The translations under genes and the position numbers were made by a program. Of a stretch of DNA of 64,000 bases, positions 7,196 to 64,000 are shown piece after piece. Location of the stretch: the NCBI RefSeq assembly GCF_048771995.1, contig NC_133028.1, forward strand, positions 2,996,501 to 3,060,500. Direction: 5' to 3'. The stretch is from Taeniopygia guttata. Its lineage: Eukaryota > Chordata > Aves > Passeriformes > Estrildidae. The notes under the pieces were generated by a model. It had not been told where the DNA came from, searched no databases, and worked only from the letters and a program-made list of their open reading frames with translations. Numbering within the stretch: position 1 is the stretch's first letter; every line of letters begins with the position of its first letter.

Positions 7196-8845
7196 TCTCT
7201 CTGGAGATTTCCCTTCTCCAACCCTGCTGTAGGACAGCACAGATGAGCACAGGGGCTGTGGCAGATGTGAGGCAATTTAGTGAAAAAGCAGAAACCAAAA
7301 TGAAACCACATCTGGAGAAGACCCTGCAGCACACCCAGCTGCCTTGAAGCCAGGAATGCAAAGTGTGGGGCAAGGAGGAGGGTGGAAAAAGGCACCAGGA
7401 TTTTAAAAATAAAACTCTGACAGAGAAAGAAACTGAGGCGAGGTGCCCTGACTTGCTGGGTGGCTTTTTGCTGGGTATTGCAAGTCCTGCTGGGTCAGGG
7501 TGTTCCTGGGGGATGCTCCCTTCCAGGGAGGGCTGGGGTTTTCTGCAGGGTTGGCAGGAACCTCCAGGGATTCCAAGAAACCCTTGGATGAGGTGAGCAG
7601 TTTCCCAGCTCAGGGAGGAACTGCACGAGGGAGACATTACACTATTTGCTTTCCAGGCTCTTTTTTTTCTGGGAAAACCAACAAATTTTGGGGCAGTGGG
7701 AGCAGGTAGCAGAAGAAAATGACCCAGATGCATGGATGAGATTTTCCTGTAATGAAACCACATCAGAGTGTGCCCTCGCAGCCCAAGTGTTTCTGGGCTC
7801 CTGTTCCTTGTTTCTGGGTAAACAGGATGTTGACATAATTAGCTTTCCTGTCATCAAGCCTACAGTAGCTGTACAGTGGAAAAAACCCTCTTGGCAGTGT
7901 TGAGCCATTTTGCTATGGAAAGATCCAGTGTCTGATTTCAGCTCCCTCCTTCCTTCTCCTTCTACCTGTCCTGCAGGTAGGACATCCCAGAGGTCTCCTG
8001 CTTCATCTCTTTAGCACTTTGCCTTCCTCCCCATCACTATTTGAGCCTGAGAGGTGGGAGAAAACACACTTGGAGTTTGGCACAAGGGAAAAAGTTGGCT
8101 TGGAAGATGATTTCTGAGAGGGTGGGTTTGGGCTGTGCTCGGAGAGCAGCTCTGCCATGTGAGGAGCTGCCTCCAGCCTCTGCTGCAGACAAGGTGGGTG
8201 CTTGTGGGGCAGAGCAAACCTACACTCCCATTGCCATGGATTTATATGGGGATGGTGGGAGCAAAGGGTCCTGCAAATCCCCCTGATGTGGAAAAGAACC
8301 TGTGTGTCCTAAAGAAAAGGCTGAGCTTTGAATCTTTCCCCCAGGCAGATGGGGTATAAAGCAGCCCAAACTTTTGGTGTGGTGACAACTGTGAATGCAG
8401 CAATAATCGTTGAAATATGAAATAAGCCAGCAAAACCAAACAAAAAAATAAAACATCCTCCCACCGAAAATGTTGCATTTCAGGAGGATGCAAAATGGGG
8501 TGTGTGCAGCCATATGAGCTGGAAAAGGCAAGGAGCCCTCCTGAGATATATATCTATAAATTGTGTGATTTTGGGGTGGAAAGGAATACAAGTCTGCCCA
8601 AATATTCCTGAATGCCTGAAGCCTGAGGGCAGTGGGCAGAGCCCTGTGAGATGTACAGAGAATGGGTATGTATTTGCCCATATCTTCCAAATTATGTCCT
8701 GAGCTTGTAGCTCCACTTGGGCAGAAAAGGGACAAAACCAAGTGGAATGAAAGCTCCTGTGTGGCCCCAAAAACTCCCTTTGGGCCAGGAAGGAGCATCC
8801 CAACCCTTGACATGAGACTGAATGGAGACTGGTTGGGTTTAAACC
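7196..8845. other. unique sequence, nothing recognised
   Basis: 1.65 kb with no recognised repeat or exon. A minus-strand open frame near 8220-8813 has no family resemblance I know and no splice or start context that would make it credible. Confidence 0.5.
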
Positions 8846-9465
8846 TGTTGGAATTTGTGATATTGATGATACTGAGATTGTAAAAAGTTTCTGTCTTTTT
8901 GCTTCGTTGCTAAAGAAGAAGTCATAATTTGTTTGTGCTGGTTTTTAAGGTTGTTTATTCTTGTTTATTTATAACACATTCTGCTGCCCTGCCACAGGTT
9001 TGTCTTGCAGGGCAGCGTGTGGGGCTCTGCCCTCAGTGGGATGTTACAAACATTAAATACCAGAAACTACCTTTGCTATATTTATAATAATGTGCTAATA
9101 TTTATCATCTATGTTGAACAGTGTGTCCCCAGCCTGAACCAACAGAAAAATGCCAACACCACAGTGAAACATGGAGGGCATGAAGAAGGAGAAAAAGGAC
9201 AAGGCACACCCAATTTCCTCCATCTTGTCCCCTTTGAACCCCTAATCTAGAATCCTAAAATTTTACTTTTGCACCCGTGCCACACTTAATTATTACTCAT
9301 ATCAAACACTCAGAGCTGGTAATTCATCCTGTAAGATTGAAAACTCTTTTCCATGGACAGAGATCACAGACAGTGTCTCTGGGGGCTCTGTCCAGGGGGG
9401 TTCCTGACCCCTTCCAGGGTCCCAGACCTTCCAGGGCAGCCAGAGGGAAGCTCTGGATTCCCACA
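8846..9465 (-). mobile_element. Solo LTR, family K copy 1 (ERVK-like), partly edited
   Basis: Begins TG and ends CA and is flanked by a perfect 6-bp target-site duplication, TAAACC (8840-8845 and 9466-9471). Six-base duplications fit class II (ERVK/alpha-beta type) retroviruses. The sense strand is taken as minus because TATTTAA precedes AATAAA in that direction in family members. It carries a single 77-bp core unit. The part from 8846 to about 9125 is much more diverged than the rest, mostly C-to-T on plus (G-to-A on the element's sense strand). No internal viral genes adjoin; it is a fossil. Confidence 0.9.
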
Positions 9466-10272
9466 TAAACCCTGCAGGGTTTAATGTTCATGGCAATCAT
9501 GGCATGGTGGGAAAGGAGTCTGTGTGAGCCAGGATCTCACCTGGATGTGGTTTTGAGGAGGCTGGGACCTTGGGTGAGCTCTGGGTACTTCAGTTTCTGT
9601 GCAGAGGTTGGGTTTCAGAGGATTCACTGCCCTCAGGCCTCACCCTGTTGGGACAAGCAGGATGGCATCTTCCCTAGTAGGGGTGTTGTGGCACTGGGAT
9701 TAATTTGTTCCTTCCTGGGCAGCAGCAATTCTTGAGGGGAACCATCGGGCTAAATTGGAGCATTCCCACCCTATCTGTGCTGAGGGTCCCGCTCCAGCCC
9801 CTGCTGTGCCACCTTCACTGCTGATGGGAAGTTCTATGGAGTCTGTGCCCTCCACTGGGGCACTCCAGTACCCGAAGTCTGGCTCATCCTGGCTGTGGGG
9901 CCGAGGCTGAGGGACTGGAGGGGCTGTCCTGGCCTCACTTCACCCCAGCACGATGGAAACAGCGTGGGTTGTGCTGCTGCTCTGCAGGATCCTGCCCAGG
10001 GCTCAGCTCTGCCTGCTCTGGAAACACGAGGAGCCGGCTGACCCTGACAGCTCAGTGCTCTCTGTCTTTATTTTCCTCCCAGAGACATCCCTCAGGGTTT
10101 TCCCAGGCTAGAATAAAACCAGAGAGCCCTTGGATTACAAAACAGCACCACAGCCACATCTTTTCCCTGTGCTGTTTTCCTGCTCCCTGCCCTACCAAGT
10201 GCTCCCAGCAGTGTCAGACCAGCTGGAGCCACTGGCACTAAAAAGCTACACAAGGTCCCTGAGATATTTGTT
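9466..10272. other. unique sequence, nothing recognised
   Basis: No supported feature beyond the target-site duplication base pairs at its left edge. Confidence 0.45.
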
Positions 10273-14162: not shown

Positions 14163-15213
14163 ACTTTGTATATTTCTAGATTCATGTCCTGCCTTTCAAG
14201 CCTGTATAAACCCTTCCCCTCTCTCTGCCTTCTGACACCACTGAGGGTGCTCTCCTTCACACACACCTCCCGTCCTGTGGGAATCCAGGGCTTCCCTCTG
14301 GCTGCCCTGGGACCCTGGCAGGGGTCAGGAACCCCCCTGGACAGAGCCCCCAGAGACACTGGCTGTGATCTCTGTCCATGGAAAAGAGTTTTCAATCTTA
14401 CAGGATGAATTACCAGCTCTGAGTGTTTGATATAAGTAATAATTAAGTGTGGCACGGGTGCAAAAGTAAAATTTTAGGATTCTAGATTAGGAGTCCAAAG
14501 GGGACAAGATGGAGGAAATTGGGTGTGTCTTGTCCTTTTTCTCCTTCTTCATGCCCTCCATGTTTCACTGTGGTGTTGGCATTTTTCTGTTGGTTCAGGG
14601 TGGGGACACACTGTTCAACGTAGGTGACAGATATTGGCACGTTATTGTAAATCCAGCACAGGTAGTTTGTGGTATTTAATGTTTGTACCATCCCACTGAG
14701 GGCAGAGCCCCACACGCTGCCCTGCAGGACAGAGCTGCGGCAGGGCAGCAGAACATGTTAGAGATAAACAGAATAAACAACCTTGAAACCAGCACAGACG
14801 AATTATGGCTTCTGCTTTGGCAACGGGGCAGAAAGACAGAGATTTTATACAATCTTGGAATCATCAATACCACGGATTCCGACACCCTCCCATTTCAGGT
14901 GACTTAATGTCACAGCAGGAGAGGTGGCTGCAGAACGTGCATCCAACATGCAGTGGCCTAAAGAGGGAAAGCAGCTGTCCTTATCTTTAATGTGCCAGCC
15001 CTCACATGTGACACTGTCCTTCAAACCCCTTGGAAACCTACAGACCCTGATTTCCTATGACATAATTCAGATTTAGTCCTAGAGCTGATTTGTCCCAGCA
15101 AAATTGCGTATGTGAGCTTGTGTGCCTGAGCACCCAGGGTGAGGAGGGGAATTTCACCAAATCAAACATCTTCCTCAATTTTAAAGTCAGCATCTTTGTT
15201 TTACCTCAATGTA
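14163..15213 (+). repeat. Duplicated block, copy A (partner at 18.3-19.2 kb)
   Basis: Both copies share 'aactttgtatatttct', 'attcatgtcctgcctttc', 'caggtgactta', 'gtgtcacagcaggagaggt' and 'ctgatttgtcccagcaaaat' in the same order and strand, about 430 bp in all, very similar by eye. Copy A is interrupted by the K-family LTR at 14276-14884 and has no insertion at 15085, where copy B has one. It could be a local duplication or two copies of an unclassified interspersed repeat. Confidence 0.85.
14276..14884 (+). mobile_element. Solo LTR, family K copy 2
   Basis: TGTGGGAATCC ... GGATTCCGACA with inverted ends. Flanks CCGTCC (14270-14275) and CCCTCC (14885-14890) are a 6-bp duplication with one difference. 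The unoccupied site in copy B of the surrounding block has CCCTCC once. TATTTAA at 14673-14679 and AATAAA at 14772-14777 suggest U3-R-U5 order on the plus strand. One core unit. Fossil, no coding region attached. Confidence 0.93.
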
Positions 15214-15280
15214 GATTTTTTTCCCCTCTGTGTGAGTACTCTGACAAAGCTGATACAAACCTACAGGAGGAAATGTATTC

Positions 15281-16919: not shown

Positions 16920-17519
16920 TGTTGGAATCTGTGGTTCCAAGATTGTAGAAAGTCTCTGTCTTTCTGCCCCACTGCCAAAGCAGAAGCCATAATTGGTCTG
17001 TGCTGGTTTCAAGGTTGTTTATTCTGTTTATCTCTAACATGTTCTGCTGCCCTGCCGCAGCTCTGTCCTGCAGGGCAGCGTGTGGGGCTCTGCCCTCAGT
17101 GGGATGGTACAAACATTAAATACCACAAACTACCTGTGCTGGATTTACAATAACGTGCCAATATCTGTCACCTACGTTGAACAGTGTGTCCCCAGCCTAA
17201 ACCAACAGAAAAATGCCAACACCACAGTGAAACATGGAGGGCATGAAGAAGGAGAAAAAGGACAAGGCACACCCAATTTCCTCCATCTTGTCCCCTTTGG
17301 ACCCCTCATCTAGAAACCTAAAATTTTACTTTTGCGCCCGTGCCACACTTAATTATTCCTTATATCAACCAGTCAGAGCTGGTAATTCATCCTGTAAGAT
17401 TGAAAACTCTTTTCCATGGACAGAGATCACAGACAGTGTCTCTGGGGGCTCTGTCCAGGGGGGTTCCTGACCCCTGCCAGGGTCCCAGGGCAGCCAGAGG
17501 GAAGCCCGGGATTCCCACA
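16920..17519 (-). mobile_element. Solo LTR, family K copy 3
   Basis: Homologous along its length to the other K copies, with TG/CA ends. Flanks CCCTTT (16914-16919) and CTCTTT (17520-17525) form a 6-bp duplication with one difference. It carries one core unit and is slightly shorter near the sense-strand 3' end. Fossil solo LTR. Confidence 0.9.
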
Positions 17520-18324: not shown

Positions 18325-19158
18325 ACTTTGTATATTTCTTGATTCATGTCCTGCCTTTCAAGCCTGTATAAACCCTTCCAGATCTCCCCTCTCTCATGGG
18401 TGCTGTCCTTCACACACACCTCCCCTCCTATTTCAGGTGACTTAGTGTCACAGCAGGAGAGGTGGCTGCAGAATGTTCATCCAACGTGCAGTGGCCTAAG
18501 GAGGGAAAGCAGCTGTCCTTATCTTTAATGTGCCATCCCTCACATGTGACACTGTCCTTCAGACCCCTTGGAAACCTACAGACCCTGATTTCCTATGACA
18601 TAATTCAGATTTAGTCCTAGAGTGTGGCAAGCACATTTCTCTCCCTCTCAGGATTTTTCATAGAGGTGCACAGAGAGAAATGAAAGAGAAAACAATTTCT
18701 ATTTCTGCTCCTTGTTTTTCTCATGAGGAATGTGTTTGGAGAATTGTTTACCTGGGGTGATTGCTTGATTGGATTCTGGTGAGGATTGTTTGAGCCTGAT
18801 GGCCAATCCAACCCAATCCAACCCACCTGGGGCTGGACTCAGAGAGGGTCAGGAGTTGTGTTTGTGTTAGAGTCAGAGAAAGTAGTATGTAGTTTTAGTA
18901 TCTTCCTTTTATATAGCATATTAATGTATTTTAGCATAGTTATAATAAAGAAATCATTCAGCCTTCTGAATTGAATCAGACATGGTCATTTCTTCCCATT
19001 GGGTTTGCCTGCATTTACAATACTAGAGCTGATTTGTCCCAGCAAAATCAAATGTGTGAGCTTGTGTGCCTAAACACCCAGGATGAGGAGGGGAATTTCA
19101 CCAAATCAAAGCATCTCCCACAATTTTAAATCTTTGTTTTACCTCCATGTAGATTTTG
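18325..19158 (+). repeat. Duplicated block, copy B
   Basis: Partner of 14163-15213. It keeps the empty site for the K LTR (CCCTCC once, about 18420) and is itself interrupted at 18623-19022 by an unrelated LTR that copy A lacks. Confidence 0.85.
18623..19022 (+). mobile_element. Solo LTR (TGTGGC type) in copy B
   Basis: Starts TGTGGCAAG and ends near TTTACAATA. It is flanked by CTAGAG (18617-18622 and 19023-19028), and copy A has CTAGAG once at the matching place. TATA-like TTTTATATAG (about 18907) and AATAAA (18944) lie on plus. The right end could be 19019 (ACA). Related to the nested LTR at 10484. Fossil. Confidence 0.85.
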
Positions 19159-19403: not shown

Positions 19404-20131
19404 TGTGGTAGAAAATTCTTTCCTCCAAGCCGAGCTTCCAAAGAAAATTCAGCAGTTTCTGTTGTTTGGTCTCAAGGTAGTTTATTCCAAGTTATCTAAA
19501 AGATTTTCTTCTCAGGCTGCTGTGGTTTGCTCAGCAGCTCAGGCAGAGGCACACACACACCCTGACATCCTCTCTGACTCCCGACTGCTTCTCCTCTCCT
19601 CACCCAGGGCTGCTGCTGTCTTTTATATGGTACATTACGTGTTACATGGGTACAGTTTTTCCCCAATGCCTATTATCTATATTAAATGGTGATTTTCTAT
19701 CTTTTATATGGTACATTACGTGTTACATGTTTACAGTTTTTCCCCAATGCCTATTACCTATATTAAATGGTGCCTTTCTACTCTAAACCAACCTGTGAGT
19801 GCCAACATCACCAAGAACATGGAGGTAAGGAAGAAGAAAGAGGAATGAAAGGACAGGCCTAAATCCCTCCATCTTAAAACCTCTGACCCCCATGTACAAA
19901 ACCAAAACCCCCCTGTACAGCACTCAAAAATTCTTCCCTCTACTTTGTGACTACTTCTACTATAATATCTAAACTTTAGTGACTTCTTGTTCTTCCTGCA
20001 AGGTTGGTAAATCATTCCATGGCTCAAACCCAAAATCACAGCTGTTTGCAGCTGCCTGCCAGGGTCTCAAATGCTTCTGACCTGGGCCCAGAACATCCAA
20101 GAATGTCTGAGGGACATTTTGAGTTCCAACA
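19404..20131 (-). mobile_element. Solo LTR, family R copy 1
   Basis: Reads on minus from TGTTGGAACTC to ACCACA. On that strand ATATAAAAG TATA sites precede AATAAA (plus-strand TTTATT at 19481). An 81-bp unit holding the TATA site is present twice (19620-19700 and 19701-19780). It shares words with family K and with the LTR at 36 kb and aligns end to end with the edited copy at 22.2 kb. No clear target duplication. Fossil, no coding region. Confidence 0.85.
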
Positions 20132-22231: not shown

Positions 22232-22862
22232 TTTGGGAACTCAAAATGTCCCTCAGACATTTTTACAAGTTCCAAATCCCAATCAAAAACATTTAAAACC
22301 CTGGCAGGCAGCTAAAAACAGCTATAATTTTAAGTTTAAACCATAAAATAATTTACCAACTTTACAAAAAAAACACTAAAAAGTCACAAAAGTTTAAATA
22401 TTATAATAATAATAATTACAAAGTAGGGGGAAGAATTTTTTAGTGCTATACAAGAAAGTTTTAGTTTTATACATAAAAGTCAAAAGTTTTAAAATAAAAA
22501 AATTTTAGCTAATCCTATCCTTCCTCTTTCTTCTTCCTTACTTCCATATTTTTAATAATATTAACATTCACAAATTAATTTAAAATAAAAACCCCACAAT
22601 TTAATATAAATAATAAATATTAAAAAAACTATAAACATATAACACATAATATACCATATAAAAATAACAACAACCAAAACAAACAAACAAAAAATGTCAA
22701 GAATATATATACCTTTACCTAAACTACTAAACAAACCGCAACAACCCAAAAACCCAATCTTTTAAATACCTTACAATAAACAACCATAAAACCAAGCAAC
22801 AAAAAATGACTAAACCTTTTTTTTTAAAAACATAAATTAAAAAAAAAGGTTTTTCCACCACA
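22232..22862 (+). mobile_element. Solo LTR, family R copy 2, G-to-A hypermutated
   Basis: Aligns end to end with the reverse complement of 19404-20131. The first ~30 bp (ACTCAAAATGTCCCTCAGAC) and the pyrimidine stretch near 22510-22545 are nearly unchanged, while most G positions of the partner are A here. The 187 bases 22509-22695 contain no G but 36 C. The TATA (ATATAAAAA, about 22656) and AATAAA (22775) survive. One core unit only. The bias is on the element's sense strand, as expected from cytidine deamination of minus-strand cDNA. Fossil, non-coding. No clear flanking duplication; ends are set from the partner. Confidence 0.88.
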
Positions 22863-25800: not shown

Positions 25801-25903
25801 GCCAGTGGATGCTGGAAAAGTGATGCTCGAAAGGTGCTCTTGGTTCACTGAGAGCTCCTCAGGAGCTGACCTGCAAATACCTCACCCTGCCACCGTGGTG
25901 ACC
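22863..25903. other. unique sequence, about 3 kb
   Basis: Contains a T-rich run at about 23640-23664 and a short CAG-rich patch near 25770. No exon, CR1 or LTR recognised. Open frames here are short and unconvincing. Confidence 0.5.
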
Positions 25904-26268
25904 GGGAAAATAACCTTCTGTCCTGGCAAAATGGGAAAATAAAATTCTGTCCTGGCAAAATGGGAAAATAACTTTCTGTCCTGGCAAAATGGGAAAATAA
26001 CCTTCTGTCCTGGCAAAATGGGAAAATAAACTTCTGTCCTGGCAAAACTGGAAAATAAACTTATGTCCTGGCAAGATGGGGAAATAAACTTCTGTCCTGG
26101 CAAAATGGGAAATAAACTTCTGTCCTGGAAAAACAGGAAAATATCCTTCTGTCCTGGCAAAATGGGAAAATAAAATTCTGTCCTGGCAAAATGGGAAAAT
26201 AACCTTCTGTCCTGGCAAAATGAGAAAATAACCTTCTGTCCTGGCAAAATGGGAAAATAACCTTCTGC
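25904..26268. repeat. 29-bp minisatellite, about 12.6 copies
   Basis: Unit GGGAAAATAACCTTCTGTCC followed by TGGCAAAAT. Copies differ by a few bases. Because 29 is not a multiple of three, a reading frame cycles through all three phases. On minus none of them hits a stop, which makes a 225-residue open frame. I treat that frame as a by-product of the array. Confidence 0.97.
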
Positions 26269-28414
26269 ATCTTAGGGATCCATCCAGACTGGCTGTGTTC
26301 CCCAGAAAGTGTGGTTTTGTCTCTGCTGCAAGAGAGGGATGCCAAAACTTCTCTACAGAGAGCTTTTTTCCTCCTTCATTAAAAAAGCATAAAGATTCCT
26401 CCTTTGCAAACAAAATATTTTCAGATTGTCCACTCAGGAAGCAGATTTTGGCAGAAATTTTCATGTCGCTGAAGCTTGCTTTGATTTTATTCCTATCGTG
26501 GTTTTGGATTATTATTATTTTTTTTTTAATAATCACTTATTTTAAATTATGGACTGGAAGGCTGGCTCCACAATTTAGAAAAATGTTTGTTCACTCAAGG
26601 AAAAAAAAAAAAATGGAAATCTCTGACGCTCTGTATTTCCAACGCACCTTTCTCAATTTCTGTGCTTTCGGGGAGAACTTCTGGACTGCTTAAACTTGAC
26701 TCCCTTTTGGGCTTTAAATATTGAGAGCAGATCAATATCTCATGAACGTCCTCGGTGAAGCTGAGTGAGGTTTGCTGGGAGCTGTATCAGCCTCTTCCCC
26801 CTCTCCTCTCCTCATTCCCACTACAAGCTCATTAAGTCGTGCCACAGGCAGAGATCCATCAAAAGCTGTAAGTGCTGTGGCTGTTTCCTGAAGTGTCTCA
26901 TTCAGGGCATGATGAGGTTTGAGTGCTTCTCCTAATTCAGGCACAATCCAGAGTTACTGGTGTGCTCTTAACTAATAAACCTTCAGCTGCAGCCCAGAAT
27001 AGCAAACTCTGTAATCACGGAAAATTGCTTTTTGATGGGTAAAAATGCACCAGCCTGGGGTGGAGATCTGCTTCCCTCCCCCCTTCCCCACCTTTCTTAA
27101 GGCACTGAGTAGGAAGATGGAGAGGGGAAAGGGAGGCAGAAGCATCCATCCTCCCCCTCACTGTCTTTTGGTGTTTGACATTTTAGGATGGGTGGGAAGG
27201 GACCTGTCCAGGTCACCATGAAAGCTTCACCAGTCTGGGCTTCATCCACGAGGTTGCTGAGCCTTCCCTGGTGGTGCCAAGTTCATTTTTCCCTGGAAAA
27301 AGGTGAATGCTCATAATCCTGAGGAAAAGAAACCTGCACCACCAGGGAAGGGATGGTCTGGGAGCCTGGTGGGGCTCATCCATGGTGTCTGAAGCATTTG
27401 TGCTTCACCAGGGAGCTGCAGAGAGACCTGGGAGAGCTTGAGCTCATCCCAGCCAGAAACATCCCTCAGGATAACACCAGACTTTGCCAGGAGCACGGCA
27501 GGGTCACTCCTTCTTGTGTAGAGCAGGATGCACTCCCTGGAAAGGGACGGGGCCATCCTGATGTCACCCAAGGGTGACTGAGGAGGGAGGGCCAGGATGT
27601 TCCCTTGCTGGAGCCTGGCCTGGCTGAGGTCGGGTTTCCAGGAAGGATAATGTCCCTGGAGACATCTGCTGCACTGTGGTGCAGTGACATCCTCCGAGGG
27701 AGGATAAACACAGCACATGCAACACAGGCACGTGGCACTGAGGGAGGATGCCCAGCAGCCACAACTCATGTATTTCCAGCTCCAAAGTTGAACTCAAACT
27801 TCAAATTCAGTGGGAAAACCACCCCCCCCCCCCAAAAAAAAAAAAAAATTCCATTTCCATCTGTGAGGTTTGGTCTTAATTAGGGTTTCTGTGTTCCTGC
27901 TGAATTATTCATGAATAATTATTTTTCTTCATACAGACTGGTTTTGGTTATCCTGCTTCACCTCAGGCTGGCTCATCTAATTAATTGACACCTATGAGAA
28001 TATGAGGCACAAAAATCCCTCCAAGCCCTTTCAAGAACTTCATATCTAAATTCAAAGACTATTCAAGGACTAAGGCTCTGGCTACTAAATATTAATAGTC
28101 ATAAAGTAATATTTATCCTTATCCTCTTCCACTCCATCCCTTCCCTTCCTTTATGCTTCTCCTTCAGTAAATCAAGATGAGACCATCAATTAGCATCGCC
28201 AAAAACCTTCCTGGGGTGCCCTTCTTTGTAGCTTAGCTGGAATAAGTCATTATCTGTGTTTCTAAGCACCTGATGAGCTTTACTGCAGAAATGAAGGTGC
28301 TTTCCCACCTGGTTTCTGGCTGAAAGGAGGAAAGGATTGTCTGGAGTACATGTGCCAAGGATAGGAGCAGAAGGGCTCAGCCAAACTCACACACTCTCCA
28401 CCGGGACCATGGCT
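26269..28414. other. unique sequence with AT-rich islands
   Basis: Includes T/A-rich sequence at 26510-26545, a C-run/A-run junction at 27822-27847, and an AT-rich segment at 27870-28110 with several TAATTA-type sites and a perfect 18-bp palindrome. The AT-rich part has the look of conserved non-coding DNA, but I cannot test conservation. Confidence 0.45.
27903..27920. repeat. perfect 18-bp palindrome
   Basis: AATTATTCATGAATAATT is identical to its reverse complement. It lies in AT-rich unique sequence with nearby TAATTA sites. Its meaning is unknown. Confidence 0.9.
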
Positions 28415-29380
28415 GGAATCATGGGATTGTGGAATTTCCTGAGCTGGAAGGGACCCACAAGGATCACTGAGTCCAACTCCTGGCCCTGCACAGGTGAATT
28501 CCAGCAATCCCCACCCTGTTCCTGAGAGGGTTATCCAAATTCTTTTTAATTGTCAGGTTTGAGGCTGTGTCCATTCCCTGGGGAGATTATTCAGTGCCCA
28601 CCTGTGGGAACCCAGGGCTTCCCTCTGGCTGCCCTGGCTGCCCTGGGACCCTGGCAGGGGTCAGGAACCCCCCTGGACAGAGCCCCCAGAGACACTGGCT
28701 GTGATCTCTGTCCATGGAAAAGAGTTTTCAATCTTACAGGATCAATTACCAGCTCTGAGTGTTTGATATCAGTAATAATTAAGTGTGGCATGGGTGCAAA
28801 AGTAAAATTTTAGGATTCTAGATTAGGGGTCCAAAGGGGACAAGATGGAGGAAATTGGGTGTGTCTTGTCCTGTTTCTCCTTCTTCATGCCCTCCATGTT
28901 TCACTGTGGTGTTGGCATTTTTCTGTTGGTTCAGGCTGGGGACACACTGTCCAACGTAGGTGACAGATATTGGCACGTTATTGTAAATCCAGCACAGGTA
29001 GTTTCTGGTATTTAATGTTTGTACCATCCCACTGAGGGCAGAGCCCCACACGCTGCCCTGCAGGACAGAGCTGCGGCAGGGCAGCAGAACATGTTAGAGA
29101 TAAACAGAATAAACAACCTTGAAACCTGCACAGACAAATTATGATTTCTTCTTTGGCAGTGGGGCAGAAAGACAGAGACTTTCTACAACCTTGGAAACAT
29201 CAATACCACAGATTCCGACACCCACCCACCCTCTGGGTGGGGAACCTTTTCCTAATGTCCCCCTAACCCTTCCCTGACACATCTCCAGCTGTTCCTTGGG
29301 CCCTGTCCCTGGTCACCAGAGAGCTCCAAGCCAGGAGGTCACCACTGAACCTCAAGGCTGCAGAAGGCTGTGCGTGGTTG
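28415..29380 (-). mobile_element. CR1 LINE split by a K-family LTR
   Basis: CR1 in reverse complement at 28415-28602 resumes at about 29227 ('aaccttttcctaatgtcc' onwards) after the LTR at 28603-29220. The CR1 words follow in family order across the gap, so the LTR inserted into an existing CR1. Confidence 0.88.
28603..29220 (+). mobile_element. Solo LTR, family K copy 4
   Basis: TGTGGGAACCC ... GATTCCGACA. Perfect 6-bp duplication CCCACC at 28597-28602 and 29221-29226. One core unit. Inserted in a CR1. Very similar to copies 2, 5 and 7 by eye. Fossil solo LTR. Confidence 0.95.
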
Positions 29381-30568: not shown

Positions 30569-31263
30569 TGTGGGAATCCAGAGCTTCCCTCTGGCTGCCC
30601 TGGAAGGCCTGGGACCCTGGCAGGGGTCAGGAACCCCCCTGGACAGAGCCACCAGAGACACTGTCTGTGATCTCTGTCCATGGAAAAGAGTTTTCAATCT
30701 TACAGGATGAATTACCAGCTCTGAGTGTTTGATATAAGCAATAATTAAGTGTGGCACAGGTGCAAAAGTAAAATTTTAGGATTCTAGATTAGGGGTCCAA
30801 AGGGGACAAGATGGAGGAAATTAGGTGTGTTTTGTCCTTTTTCTCCATCTTCATGCCCTCCATGTTTCACTGTGGTGTTGGCATTTTTCTGTTGGTTCAG
30901 GCTGGGGACACGCTGTTCAATGTAGGTGACAGATATTGGCACGTTATTGTAAATCCAGCACAGGTAGTTTGTGGTATTTAATGTTTGTAACATCCCACTG
31001 AGGGGTGTTACATTGGCACGTTATTGTAAATCCAGCACAGGTAGTTTGTGGTATTTAATGTTTGTACCATCCCACTGAGGGCAGAGCCCCACACGCTGCC
31101 CTGCAGGACAGAGCTGCGGCAGGGCAGCAGAACATGTTAGAGATAAACAGAATAAACAACCTTGAAACCAGCACAGATGAATTATGGCTTCTTCTTTGGC
31201 AGTGGGGCAGAAAGACGGAGACTTTCTACAATCTCAGAATCATCAATATCACGGATTCTGACA
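30569..31263 (+). mobile_element. Solo LTR, family K copy 5, two core units
   Basis: Full K LTR with TG/CA ends. The 77-bp unit containing TATTTAA occurs twice (30935-31003 and 31004-31080). Flanks AGCATT and TCACTG do not match, so no target duplication is visible. Fossil. Confidence 0.92.
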
Positions 31264-33629
31264 TCACTGAAACCTTTCACCTGAACCATCAAACATGGGC
31301 TGGGGGCTTGGCCAAGCAGCTCCAGAGCCCAGCTCTTTGGAAACCACCCACTGCTGTATGTGCTGGCTTCATCTGACACGGAGCACGGCTTCCTGGGAGG
31401 AAGGCATGGCACTGGGATCCTCTCCTTGGCTGTGCCTCAGTTTCCTTTCAGCCTCAATTGCTGCCTCACTGGGCTGCTGCACATTTCATGAACTGATCTA
31501 GTGGTGGAAACCCTGACATCAGGCTCAGCCTCATGCTGAGTGCTAGTGCTGATGTGTTCCAAAACCAGGTGAGGTTTTCAGCTCCCCTGCATGCCCTGGG
31601 GAGGCTGTGCTGCCTGGGTTCCCCCCAGGGAAGAAGCTATGGAGTGGTGCCCCCTGGATCACCTGGGGCCATGGCAGAAAAAAAGAAATGGGATTTTATG
31701 CATTGCCTGTGTTTTCTGTTCTGCTCAGAAGGAGAAGATTTTGGCCCATCTCCATGTTCCACCTTCAGGAACTCCTGGATGCAGCTCCAGAAACCTTTCC
31801 TGGATGCTTTGATTTTTAGCCCCAGGAGGACACAGCTTGTCCTCATGGCTGGGTCAAGGAAAAAGTGCCAGGTTGTCATCCTGTGCTGCTCCTTTTTCTT
31901 GTCCCTGGAGTCTCTGTGCTTTCCCTTTTGTTACAAAACAGGGGTTGCAACACTCCTTTTGCCTTCCTGAAAACCTGTGATCTTCTCAGAGCTGTGTTGA
32001 CATGTAGGGATGGAATCATCCACCATGGGTTTTCTCCCAGCACTGAGGATTTTGCTCTGTTTCCTACTACAAAACAAGCAAGCTCCAGGTATCTTCACTT
32101 CTCCCCTGTCCTGGCTCATCCCAGGGAAATTCCCTCAGGAAGCCCCTCCTGTCCTGTAAATGCATTTTGTTTTGATCCCTTCTTCTGCCAGGCATCACCA
32201 CCTTACAGCACTGGTGCCAGTGCTGCTTACATGTGATTTTAAATCCCATTTTAGCTAACAACACAGGGATTTGAATTTCCAGCTTGTGAGCATGGATCAT
32301 GCTAGGAGTGCTGCTCAGGCCAAGAAATTCCTTGCATTTTTTTGGGGCAGTTTTCTCCTCTGTGCCTCCTCGCTGGAATGGGCTCTGGCACAGCTTTTGT
32401 TTCCTGCAGCTGCTGGAGAACAGAGCAATCGTGGTTCCTCTCCTTCGTGGGCGAAGCTCATTGTTTTGGAAGGAGGGCTGGCATTTTCAGAAACCTGCTG
32501 AATCGGCATCCTGGATCCAAAGCTCCATGGATGGAAGTGGATGCTGATATTTTGGTAGCTGAGCCAAGCCTCTAGATTCCAGAAAATGAGGTTTTTACCT
32601 GAGAGCCCCATTCCTGCTGATTCCAAAGCACTTTGCCCACTCCAAGCCCTGAAAGAGAGGAAGTGTTTCATGGGGCTGCTGACACATCTCAAGAGGTTTT
32701 TCCTACCTGTCACAGTGCAGGTGACCCATCCCTTCTGCCATTGCCTTGTAGGTGATCTTCAGCTCATTCACAAGATGCATCCCCTTGGAAACCTCTGTCA
32801 TCCCAGGAGATGCCAACACCTGTCCTGGCAGAGGTCTTTGGACAGTGATGGAGGGGAAAGATGAGCAGCACCGTGTGCCCTTGTGATGTTTGCATACACA
32901 GAGGGCAGCAAGAAGTGAAAATTCACTTAAAATGTTGGGTGAGGCTTGTTTCATTCTGGTTCCCTTTGGCAGCTGGAGTGAGCTTGTCAGGGATAATAAG
33001 GATAATAAACGTTGCTAAGCAATAAGTGATTCCAGATCAGCTTCATCAGCTCAGCCCTGTGGGGAGGAAAAGGGATCTGAGCAGGGAAGAGCAGCAGAAA
33101 ACACCTGGCAGGGGGATGGAAGACACAAACAGCCCGTGTCAGCTTGGGGACAACCCTGGCCCTGTTGGGAGAGGGAGGGCAGGGCCCAGATGGGCTGTGG
33201 TTGTGCTGGTCCCAGTTACAGCACCATGGAGAAGTGCAGGGTGACCAGTCCTTGCTGACCAGAGCTGAGTGAGCCCCTGCCACAAGCAGTGCCTCATTGG
33301 GACTGAGCTCTGGTGTTACCATCCACAACCCTTCATGGACGAGGGGACAGAGCCTGCAGAAAGCAGAGGCCCAACAACGTCAGCACAGAGCTAGAGGATA
33401 TCCAGAGGGCTTTTCCTGAAGAAGAACAACACAGGAATTGACCTCTCCCTCTCCTGCTTCTCTGCTCCTCTCGGACAAGCCAGCCAGCTCTTCCCACTCA
33501 ATGCTCATTGCCCTGATTTTTAAGAGTGTTAAGTTTTTGTTTGTAATTCTTTTGAAAGTTTTAAAGTTCTCATAAAACTCCTACAGCCTTCTGATCTGTT
33601 TGCATATTTCTACTAAAGTTCTCACGCAC
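31264..33629. other. unique sequence; right end may be LTR-related
   Basis: Mostly unrecognised. At about 33560-33630 the words 'ataaaactcctacagcc' and 'ttctgatctg' resemble the poly-A region of the TGTGGC-type LTRs at 10.5 and 18.6 kb, so a degraded copy may end here. Not certain. Confidence 0.4.
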
Positions 33630-33840: not shown

Positions 33841-34318
33841 GATGCTCCCACCTTGTGGGGCAGGGTTAGGGTTAGTGGGGGGGGGTCACACACACGTCCT
33901 TGAGAGCTCTGTGATAGCCCAAACGCCTCCCTGCCCTCTCCTGCACTGCCAGAACCCTCCAAGCTCCCAGTTTCCATCCCAGAGGTCTTGCTGGAGGCTT
34001 GTTCAGCTGTGACAGAGATGTGTCTGTGCTCACTGGCTCCTTCCTGTGCAGGTTATGGGGGCAGGAGGGAGGGTGGGTCAGGCTCTCCATCCCCATCCCC
34101 ATCCCAGGCACTTCCCCTGCTGCTGAGTCCCTTTCTCCAGGCCTTTCCTGCTCGGATTGGCTGTGGGAGGACACAAGAGCAGTTTGGAAACTCATGGCTA
34201 GTCTGAAGAATGTGGATGAGGACTCTGCCTGATAATACTGAATAATTAGAGGTGATCACATGAAGCTGACAGGACAAACACTTTAAATTCCAGGAAATCC
34301 CAGAGATGATTCCCCCAC
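33841..34318. other. unique sequence, nothing recognised
   Basis: Includes two TTAGGG-like units and a G run near 33865-33887. Nothing else. Confidence 0.4.
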
Positions 34319-35014
34319 TGTCGGAATCTGTGGGTATTGATGATTCTGAGATTGTAGAAAGTCTCTGTCTTTCTGCCCCGTTGCCAAAGCAGAAGCCATA
34401 ATTGGTCTGTGCTGGTTTCAAGTTTGTTTATTCTGTTTATCTCTAACATGTTCTGCTGCCCTGCCGCAGCTCTGTCCTGCAGGGCAGCGTGTGGGGCTCT
34501 GCCCTCAGTGGGATGTTACAAACATTAAATACCAGAAACTACCTGTGCTGGATTTACAATAACGTGCCAGTGTAACACCCCTCAGTGGGATGTTACAAAC
34601 ATTAAATACCACAAACTACCTGTGCTGGATTTACAATAACGTGCCAATATCTGTCACCTACGTTGGACAGTGTGTCCCCAGCCTAAACCAACAGAAAAAT
34701 GCCAACACCACAGTGAAACATGGAGGGCATGAAGAAGGAGAAAAAGGACAAGACACACCCAATTTCCTCCATTTTGTCCCCTTTGGACCCCTAATCTAGA
34801 AACCTCAAATTTTACTTCTGCACCCATGCCACACTTAACTATTCCTTATATCAAACACTCAGAGCTGGTAATTCATCCTGTAAGATTGAAAACTCTTTTC
34901 CATGGACAGAGATCACAGACAGTGTCTCTGGGGGCTCTGTCCAGGGGGGTTCCTGACCCCTGCCAGGGTCCCAGACCCTCCAGGGCAGCCAGAGGGAAGC
35001 CCTGGATTCCCACA
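34319..35014 (-). mobile_element. Solo LTR, family K copy 6, two core units
   Basis: Full K LTR in minus orientation. The 77-bp unit occurs at 34503-34579 and again at 34580-34648 (shortened at its outer edge, as in the other copies). Flanks CCCCAC and ACCTCA do not match. Fossil. Confidence 0.92.
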
Positions 35015-58104: not shown

Positions 58105-58876
58105 TGTGGGAATCCAGGGCTTCCCTCTGGCTGCCCTGGCAGGTCTGAGACCCTGGCAGGGGTCAGGAACCCCCCTGGACAGAGCCCCCAGAGACACTGG
58201 CTGTGATCTCTGTCCATGGAAAAGAGTTTTCAATCTTACAGGATGAATTACCAGCTCTGAATGTTTGATATAAGTAATAATTAAGTGTGGCACAGGTGCA
58301 AAAGTAAAATTTTAGGATTCTAGATTAGGGGTTCAAAGGGGACAAGATGGAGGAAGTTGGGTGTGTCTTGTCCTTTTTCTCCTTCTTCATGCCCTCCATG
58401 TTTCACTGTGGTGTTGGCATTTTTCTGTTGGTTCAGGCTGGGGACACTCTGTTCAACGTAGGTGACAGATATTGGCACGTTATTGTAAATCCAGCACAGG
58501 TAGTTTGTGGTATTTAATGTTTGTACCATCCCACTGAGGGGTGTTACATTGGCACGTTATTGTAAATCCAGCACAGGGAGTTTCTGGTATTTAATGTTTG
58601 TAACATCCCACTGAGGGGTGTTACATTGGCACGTTATTGTAAATCCAGCACAGGTAGTTTCTGGTATTTAATGTTTGTACCATCCCACTGAGGGCAGAGC
58701 CCCACACGCTGCCCTGCAGGACAGAGCTGCGGCAGGGCAGCAGAACATGTTAGAGATAAACAGAATAAACAACCTTGAAACCAGCACAGACGAATTATGG
58801 CTTCTTCTCTGGCAATGGGGCAGAAAGACAGAGACTTTCTACAATCTCGGGATCATCAATGCCACAGATTCCGACA
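58105..58876 (+). mobile_element. Solo LTR, family K copy 7, three core units
   Basis: TGTGGGAATCC ... GATTCCGACA with a perfect 6-bp duplication GCAGCC (58099-58104 and 58877-58882). The core unit with TATTTAA is present three times (58471-58539, 58540-58616, 58617-58693); the last two are exactly 77 bp. At 772 bp it is the longest K LTR here. Fossil solo LTR, no coding region. Confidence 0.96.
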
Positions 58877-59309
58877 GCAGCCCTGAGGGGCAGGTGTTGC
58901 TCTGTGAGATGCTGAGGACTCCAGGCAGGAAATCCTGGCTTCCCTTCCATCCTCTGCAGATAAGGATCTCCAAGCTGGACCATCAAACTGTCCCTATTTC
59001 CTTATCACCTCTGACTTTGTCCGGTCTGGTGGGAAAGGCTGCTCTTTCCAGCCTCGTTGCCAATTCCTCTCTTTCCCAGATATAGCTGGTTAGAACAGGG
59101 ATATGGCTCATTTCCCTGGAGTCCTTTAATTTGCAAAGCTCTGCTTCCATCTGTAGGCTTGGTGGAGACCCAAGTGCTGAGGCTGTGAGGCAGGTGTGGG
59201 AGGGCAGAGCCCAGCACCAGGCACAGGCTGGCTCCTGGGGTGTGCTGGAAGGGGACAGCCACCCTGATGGCTGGCAGGCTCACAAACCACATCCCAAACA
59301 GCGTGTGGC
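58877..59309. other. unique sequence, nothing recognised
   Basis: No supported feature. Confidence 0.4.
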
Positions 59310-61920: not shown

Positions 61921-62520
61921 TTCCCTGTGCCCCGTCCCGCACACCTGCCCGAGGGGCCGTTCCCTGTGCCCCGTCCCGAACGCCACTCCCAGGGTTCAGC
62001 CCTGTGCCCTATCCCAAACACCATCCTCAGGGTTCAGCCCTGTGCCCTATCCCAAACACCACTCTCAGGGTTCAGCCCTGTGCCCCATCCCAAACACCAC
62101 CCACAGGGTTCAGCCCTGTGCCCTATCCCAAACACCACTCTCAGGGCTCAGCCCGATGCCCCATCCCCAACACTACCTCAGGGTTCATCCCTGTGCCCTA
62201 TCCCAAACACCACTCTCAGGGTTCAGCCCTGTGCCCCATCCCAAACACCACTCTCAGGGTTCAGCCCTGTGCCCCATCCCAAACACCACTCTCAGGGTTC
62301 AGCCCTGTGCCCCATCCCAAACGCCACTCTCAGGGTTCAGCCCTGTGCCCCATCCCAAACGCCACTCTCAGGGTTCAGCCCTGTGCCCCATCCCAAACAC
62401 CACCCTTTGGATTCAGCCCTGTGCCCTATCCCAAACATCACCCTCAGGGTTCAGCCCTGTGTCCCATCCCACTGATGATCCTGGAGGAACCAGCCCTGTG
62501 CCCCGTCCCACACACCGCCC
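61915..62520. repeat. 38-bp minisatellite next to the CpG island
   Basis: Unit starts GGGTTCAGCCCTGTGCCCCA and continues TCCCAAACACCACTCTCA. I count about 13 good copies between 61992 and 62485, with degenerate units on both edges, including GGGGCCGTTCCCTGTGCCCC versions that grade into the CpG island. 38 is not a multiple of three and none of the three plus frames meets a stop, so frames of up to 405 residues exist. I read them as by-products. Confidence 0.95.
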
Positions 62521-64000
62521 TGAGGGGCCGTTCCCCGTGTCCCATCCCACAATTTCACCTCCCCAAACTACTCCAGGGGCCGTTCGCTTTGCCCCGTCCC
62601 AAGCGCCCCAAAACCACCCCAGGAATTTGCTGACCCTCCTTCCTCCACCCCTTGACACCCCAGCCCAGGTGCAGAGCAGGTGTCATCCCCACCGCTTTCC
62701 ATGGGGACCGTGGGAGAAAGGATCACTCTCTCAGCTAAGGGCAGAACACGCATGGTTGTGTTGGGATTTTGGGGTGCTTTGGGTATTTTTTTCTCCCCTC
62801 CCGTGTGTTGGTGAATCTCCCGCATGTGACACGAGTCCCTGCGTGCCTCCGCATTCCCCGCCTGGCATTCCCGGTGATGACACCGAGAGGAGAGGTTAAG
62901 TGTGGAAGTCACCGTGCTGGGGATGTGAGTGACGAGCGGCGAAGGCTCGCCCCCAGCTTGTTTGTGTTTTTGTGTTTTCGTGTTTACACAAAGCTGTTAC
63001 AATACCGGGGGCTTGGCGGCTCACAGCGGCATTTTAAGTCGAATCCATCGACTTGTGTGGAATTGCTCCTTCTTCGAGATCGGTGTGGTAGATGAGGGAT
63101 AAATTCCGAATGCAGGGTAGTGAAATGCACAGAGCCAATTGTCAGTTATGGAAACTCAAAACAAAGCTTTTATTTACATTCTCAACCCCGTACACAGAGT
63201 TGCTCTGCTGCATCGTTGCTCTGCTCATCCCAAAAAGTGCTTTCTGTGGATTATAGGCACGCTGTCTCGGACCTGGTGCCGGGACCAGCTGTAATTGCCT
63301 GATATATTAGATGTAAACAGTGGCTTTACATAAAAGTGAAACCATATGTATCGCCTAACACATGTCCACTCTGTGATCCTGCACAAACAAAGTCGAGCCC
63401 AGAGCCCTGTCCTTAGCTCACCCTGTTGATCCACGTTTCCCATAGCCTGCACGATGCAGTCCTGTTCCCAGAGTTACCAGACAGGTTTAGTGGAGACCAA
63501 GAAATCAGCCCAGGAGCATTTCTCTGTGTTGTGCAAGAATGCTGTTATGTTCTCAGTCCTTTACAGATGTTGTTTTATTGACTTAGTGATAACATTTCGC
63601 TCTCCTAGGTCCTTTTCCCTTTCCAGATTGTTAGGCCAGCACTTACTAATCGTTTATGGCACTGCTGTGGAACAGATGTACTGTGTTTTTTAGGGAGTAG
63701 TAAGCTCTGTGGTTTCAGCTGGCTTTGCCTCTAAAAAAAAAAACCAGCACTTCCCTCGTGCCACTGTTGTGGAGTGGGTAGCCGGACTAGGAAGCCTGTT
63801 TGGATGACTACTGAGCTGGCAAAAAATCCAACAGGCTTGGGTCTGACTCAGTGCCTGGATCCTCAGCCATTGTGTGGCTGATCAAATGTTTACCTGGACT
63901 TCTTTGGGTTTGGAGCAGCATCCAGCTGGTATTTTGGCTAAGCTGCTTGTGGAAGGAAGTGTAGAGGTCTGCGGCTTTAAATGCTAAAAATGCTGGCTGA
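62521..64000. other. probable intron 1 sequence
   Basis: Moderately CpG-containing to about 63100, then ordinary. No exon, CR1 or LTR recognised. A-run near 63733. Its reading as intron depends on the donor call at 61685. Confidence 0.4.

Follow-up and report, generated by a model that had tools for sequence, protein, structure and literature searches.

G-to-A editing of avian LTR elements was reported by Knisbacher and Levanon (2016), and PMC6523648 describes it as especially strong in the zebra finch among 111 vertebrates. The highest densities in Table 3 of PMC12548423 are those of Mtv21 (120.8 G-to-A changes per kb), Mtv61-3' (81.2), HIV-1 VAU (72.8) and the zebra finch element TguERVl1 (71.5), and the two finch elements tabulated there, measured along 5.5 and 6.2 kb, reach 71.5 and 57.2 per kb. 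In the same source Mtv21 is a 7.9-kb mouse provirus whose editing is attributed to mouse APOBEC3, with G reduced to 10.8%, edited LTRs and flanking DNA that the editing left unaffected. In the edited endogenous MLV proviruses of PMC2041998, G-to-A exceeds C-to-T, and a gradient, whose measurement was confined to the stretch between the primer sites, was read as minus-strand exposure time; strand bias and gradient together were interpreted there as editing just before integration. PMC3310730 reports less editing immediately downstream of polypurine tracts, with gradients that are not always evident.

Editing of songbird LTRs is therefore a known kind of event, as the first-pass annotation of this DNA had pointed out, and both PMC6523648 and PMC12548423 describe zebra finch cases. 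The segment at 22232-22862 (+ strand) of the 64-kb stretch of DNA analysed here, which we call the window, shares G-to-A change in an LTR element with the edited zebra finch retrotransposons, and its density is unusually high. With 184 G-to-A changes per kb over 631 bases, one partner copy being the reference, it exceeds all 10 rows of Table 3 of PMC12548423, the two finch elements included, although the lengths are unlike (631 bases against 3.5-9.3 kb). Like Mtv21, it has suffered a strong loss of G in an LTR; unlike Mtv21, it is a single LTR, and its G content is 5.9%. Like the MLV proviruses, it has more G-to-A than C-to-T and a gradient, which in this case lies inside the LTR. Among the matches listed, no title dealt with a within-LTR editing gradient in birds, and we do not claim that it is absent from print.

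We put at about 90% the probability that the segment is an LTR, probably solo, which was hypermutated by AID/APOBEC-family deamination of minus-strand cDNA before integration. A host single-strand DNA cytidine deaminase of this family would have turned C to U in the minus-strand cDNA, presumably in the last round of reverse transcription preceding integration, and each U would have templated an A in the sense strand. The start of U3 would be the best shielded part, as it adjoins the polypurine tract from which plus-strand synthesis originates, and U5, the least shielded, should remain single-stranded longest. The provirus would later have collapsed to a single LTR. A narrower version, in which the enzyme was an APOBEC1-like, non-APOBEC3 deaminase, more than 90% of G was lost past the U3 start and an internal U3-to-U5 gradient records the order of plus-strand synthesis, is possible but rather doubtful as a whole.

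The base counts of the segment are 303 A, 179 T, 112 C and 37 G. A recount of the stretch at 22509-22695 (+ strand) agrees exactly with the first-pass annotation, giving 187 consecutive bases with 36 C and not one G, the longest G-free run of the window. The partner LTR of the same family, found by self-alignment at 19404-20131 (- strand), has a normal G content (185 G in 728 bases on the sense of the segment), and its own longest G-free run is 35 bases; when its sequence was shuffled 5000 times, a G-free run never exceeded 50. Opposite the 187 bases the partner has 66 G, of which 34 are A in the segment, 4 are C and 28 are without counterpart. The partner carries an 81-bp tandem duplication at 19616-19777. 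The segment had been annotated as aligning end to end with the reverse complement of the partner; the match as an LTR stands, with the correction that the segment is without one 81-bp tandem unit and other blocks.

The strings TATAAA at 22657 (LTR base 426) and AATAAA at 22775 (base 544), each one of several in the segment, can be compared with those of the partner in the same orientation, where TATAAA lies at LTR bases 424 and 505 and the sole AATAAA at 646, near the 3' end. Their placement suggests that the + strand of the segment is the retroviral sense strand, and thus that G was lost from the sense strand. A target duplication was sought in the flanks of the segment and of the partner, and none was found; for this reason the segment is called only probably solo and its ends are approximate.

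All the counts for the segment come from a single pair, since the partner is the sole other copy of the family in the window. From partner to segment, a global alignment tolerant of G-to-A yielded 116 G-to-A, 12 C-to-T, 4 A-to-G and 3 T-to-C changes. The result hardly depends on the scoring, as a global alignment in which all transitions are scored alike gave 118, 13, 5 and 3, respectively, and a local one 113, 12, 4 and 5. Expressed as rates, of the 148 partner G that are either A or G in the segment 116 (78%) became A, and 12 of 105 C became T; for the 118 and 13 changes of the symmetric global alignment the difference has p = 2e-22. The remaining partner G either have no counterpart in the segment (28) or became C (7) or T (2), and outside the partner's G columns the two LTRs disagree at 39 of 465 positions.

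These counts bear on the possibility that the pattern arose by CpG decay or general AT drift. The excess of C-to-T over A-to-G and T-to-C is what ordinary drift gives, but G-to-A is about ten times more frequent than C-to-T, only 2 of the 148 scored G stand in CpG and 114 of the 116 edits lie outside it, so that we consider this explanation practically negligible. The first-pass annotation had likewise held that CpG decay cannot produce such a pattern, and the equal number of C-to-T changes that it associated with AT drift is not what we found. Its statement that most partner G are now A and C is largely kept is borne out, and its reading of the segment as the outcome of APOBEC-type deamination of minus-strand cDNA is supported by the substitution and 3'-neighbour tables of this one pair, which show a sense-strand excess of G-to-A and a moderate bias towards G followed by a purine. 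Two of its figures had to be trimmed. About 30 of 32 G had been counted as edited in a 125-bp piece, and the best piece that we found with more than 93% edited has 27 of 29; near saturation applies past LTR base 273 (66 of 71), not to the LTR overall.

The window also contains seven LTRs of a related family, forming a dense cluster in 64 kb. They are A1 at 30569-31266 (+), with its true end near 31263; A2 at 34318-35014 (-); A3 at 58105-58879 (+), with its true end at 58876; A4 at 8846-9465 (-); A5 at 28603-29220 (+); A6 at 14276-14884 (+); and A7 at 16932-17519 (-), whose coordinates fall short at the U5 end. Exact 6-bp duplications accompany A3 (GCAGCC) and A5 (CCCACC). A3 contains a duplication of its own at 58471-58694, offset by 77 bases, which resembles the 81-bp one of the partner LTR. 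The stretch beside A6 (14885-15219) recurs in pieces at 18423-18622 and 19023-19157, near the partner LTR, perhaps as a local duplication that an insertion has broken up.

The consensus of these seven LTRs in a multiple alignment, A4 included, served as the outgroup to polarise the changes. A profile search that used the partner matched three of the copies over bases 2-724, nearly its full length; among the matches listed, the other four cover roughly its first 415 bases, and three of these four have weak 3' matches apart from that. Of the 109 columns that pair a partner G with an A of the segment, the related consensus has G in 56, A in 20, a pyrimidine in 17 and a gap in 16. Where both LTRs have G it reads G at 14 columns and A at 6, and where both have A it reads G at 25 and A at 73; the 56/20 split fits the former and not the latter (p = 2e-10). 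A mixture fit put the share of ancestral G at the edited columns at 100%, with a support of 83-100%. Taken together, the alignments make it most likely that the segment lost G and that the edited sites were ancestrally G.

Had the partner changed instead, ADAR-type A-to-G RNA editing would have put about 116 G into its lineage. Two sequences alone leave the direction of change open, and the 20 outgroup columns with A would suit such an origin. The 56 columns with G and the fitted ancestral share speak against it, as does the G content, which is 6% in the segment against 25% for the partner and 22-27% for the related LTRs; we regard such an origin as highly improbable.

Each of the related LTRs was also scored against the consensus of the other six. 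A4 is a second edited LTR, more lightly edited than the segment: of 154 consensus G, 20 have become A, and of 131 C, 7 have become T, a modest excess (p = 0.019); 17 of its 20 edits lie outside CpG. The other six, A1, A2, A3, A5, A6 and A7, are without G-to-A excess, with 0-3 G-to-A and 1-5 C-to-T changes each, and the C-to-T count of A4 also exceeds theirs. At the edited sites of A4, the partner LTR of the segment's family reads G at 10 and A at 5, like the unedited G sites of A4 (75 and 26) and unlike its A sites, where the partner reads G at 28 and A at 87. The sequence GGTTTA flanks A4 on the same strand at its U3 end (9466-9471) and at its U5 end (8840-8845) as an apparent target-site duplication, which was read by eye, an automated listing of the flanks having given a longer match further out. 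In a strand-asymmetry screen of the 88 self-alignments of at least 150 bases, which covers only repeats with a second copy in the window, the pair of segment and partner ranks first and pairs with A4 occupy the next six places. There are thus two edited LTRs of related families about 13 kb apart, with very different saturation, and in both of them editing is lower near U3.

Along the segment, the edited share per 91 partner bases from U3 to U5 is 11/22, 19/22, 20/33, 15/16, 10/10, 5/5, 22/24 and 14/16, so that the rise is not smooth. The first 273 LTR bases have 50 of 77 G edited and the rest 66 of 71 (Fisher p = 4e-5, with a cut-off picked after seeing the bins). A rank test of position against editing, which needs no cut-off, gave p = 6e-5, and position remains significant alongside the neighbour context (p = 7e-5). 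When only the columns with G in both outgroup and partner are taken, 28 of 41 are edited in the first part and 28 of 29 after it (p = 0.005). C-to-T changes in the segment are without a clear rise (4/38 and 8/67). The start of U3 is the least edited, since in the first 40 LTR bases of the partner, 22232-22269 (+) of the segment, 5 of 6 partner G are retained and 1 of 6 is edited. This is what would be expected if U3 is the first part, and U5 the last, to be covered by plus-strand synthesis from the polypurine tract.

In A4, the edited G from U3 to U5 are 1/38, 0/31, 4/32, 4/33 and 11/20, with p = 5e-5 for the first 250 bases against the rest, again with a cut-off picked after the bins. Its C-to-T bins are 0/36, 1/13, 1/25, 3/30 and 2/27, and its differences other than G-to-A are also uneven (1/119, 2/119, 2/121, 9/123 and 3/114). 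A second single-stranded phase of the minus strand of the 3' LTR, late in reverse transcription, is described in PMC12548423, where the mouse Mtv G-to-A changes private to the 3' LTR fall mainly in U3, which makes up most of that LTR, and not in U5. That late phase therefore does not favour a profile that is high in U5.

Two islands of retained G had been annotated near 22305-22312 and 22425-22430, and both are recovered, at 22303-22312 (+), with 5 of 5 partner G kept, and at 22423-22433 (+), with 6 of 6. Retained G cluster beyond chance even within the first 273 bases (p = 0.0018), and exposure time alone is thus insufficient as an explanation. A switch of template to an unedited molecule, or patchy loading of the enzyme, could account for the islands. 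Two kinds of shielding were tried as candidates and rejected. For hairpins on the minus strand, the unpaired probability of the retained G shows no significant difference from that of the edited ones in three fold windows (p 0.10-0.31), the retained sites being overall slightly more unpaired, and in the first 273 bases alone p is 0.74-0.97. For purine tracts, the purine fraction around both kinds of site is alike in the first 273 bases (p = 0.71).

A deamination of the displaced strand after integration, while the LTR was transcribed in antisense or underwent recombination, would yield the same strand asymmetry as editing of the cDNA. The ends of the segment, without target duplication and with 1 G in the 20 bases past the U5 end, would accommodate it, but the G content of the flank is normal from about 20 bases out. 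A4 is edited up to its last LTR bases, and the adjoining GGTTTA retains its GG on both sides. With the lower editing near U3 of both LTRs and the disfavoured AID hotspots of the pooled context test given below, we judge an origin after integration very unlikely.

The segment might also belong to a subfamily derived from one edited master element, in which case its edits were inherited and not made in the round that produced it. Only one other family copy, the partner, was available for comparison with the segment, and there are published grounds for considering such an inheritance, since PMC6523648 speculates that editing adds to LTR subfamily diversity in estrildid finches and PMC12548423 reads Mtv23 as a copy of the hypermutated Mtv17. 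In the related family, by contrast, the lighter editing is found in one copy, A4, of seven, and an LTR that keeps 5 of 71 G past base 273 would seem unlikely to have been an active promoter, though its TATAAA and AATAAA strings remain. We consider inheritance rather unlikely, and even if it were true, the original event would still be a deamination.

Editing before integration, the reading that we prefer, can be examined further through the bases that follow the edited G. In the first 273 bases of the segment, 22 of 28 G are edited in GG, 16 of 21 in GA, 5 of 10 in GC and 7 of 18 in GT; past base 273 the purine preference is gone (34 of 36 with a following purine, GR, and 32 of 35 with a pyrimidine, GY). 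Past consensus base 250 of A4 the edited counts are 9/19 in GA, 5/24 in GG, 4/21 in GT and 1/18 in GC. Pooling four strata, GR is edited more than GY (odds ratio 3.5, p = 5e-4) and GA more than the rest (odds ratio 2.6, p = 0.015), both p values being uncorrected. The hotspot of AID is WRC, i.e., GYW on the scored strand. In the four strata pooled, GYW is edited less (odds ratio 0.37, p = 0.012, uncorrected), and over A4 as a whole GYW (4/38) and other G (16/113) are edited about equally often.

The context thus argues against AID, pointing to an APOBEC1/3-like enzyme that prefers TC/CC on the minus strand. The likeliest candidate would be APOBEC1-like rather than AID. PMC3880073 lists APOBEC1 homologues in zebra finch and anole and calls APOBEC3 exclusive to placental mammals; it also describes edited L1 in the lizard and no such editing in lizard LTR elements, which counts against an LTR-editing reading.

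Short motifs of the segment's LTR had no match in the viral and prokaryote collections, and the LTR motif of the related family had none in the viral collection, absences that say little for families of this kind. Rfam gave no match at gathering thresholds, and Pfam, at E 0.01, gave none in the 10 frames scanned of the 62 stop-to-stop frames of at least 130 aa. The window also holds a tandem array with a 29-base period at 25842-26325 and, at 61923-62549, a C-rich array whose tandem units recur about every 38 bases, inside a stop-to-stop frame of 511 codons for which Pfam gave no match.

CR1-like 3' ends make a bird the likely host. Were it a songbird, the description of APOBEC3 as restricted to placental mammals (PMC3880073) would raise the question of which enzyme edits its retroviruses. 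A4 and the U3 part of the segment show the preference for G before a purine and the rest of the segment shows a ceiling, and the two edited LTRs together offer a concrete test of AID versus an APOBEC1-like enzyme. The finding suggests that LTRs, as well as internal regions, could be screened for editing, and, if the gradient inside the LTR does record the order of plus-strand synthesis, LTRs alone could reveal how active a deaminase was in an extinct episode and which context it preferred.
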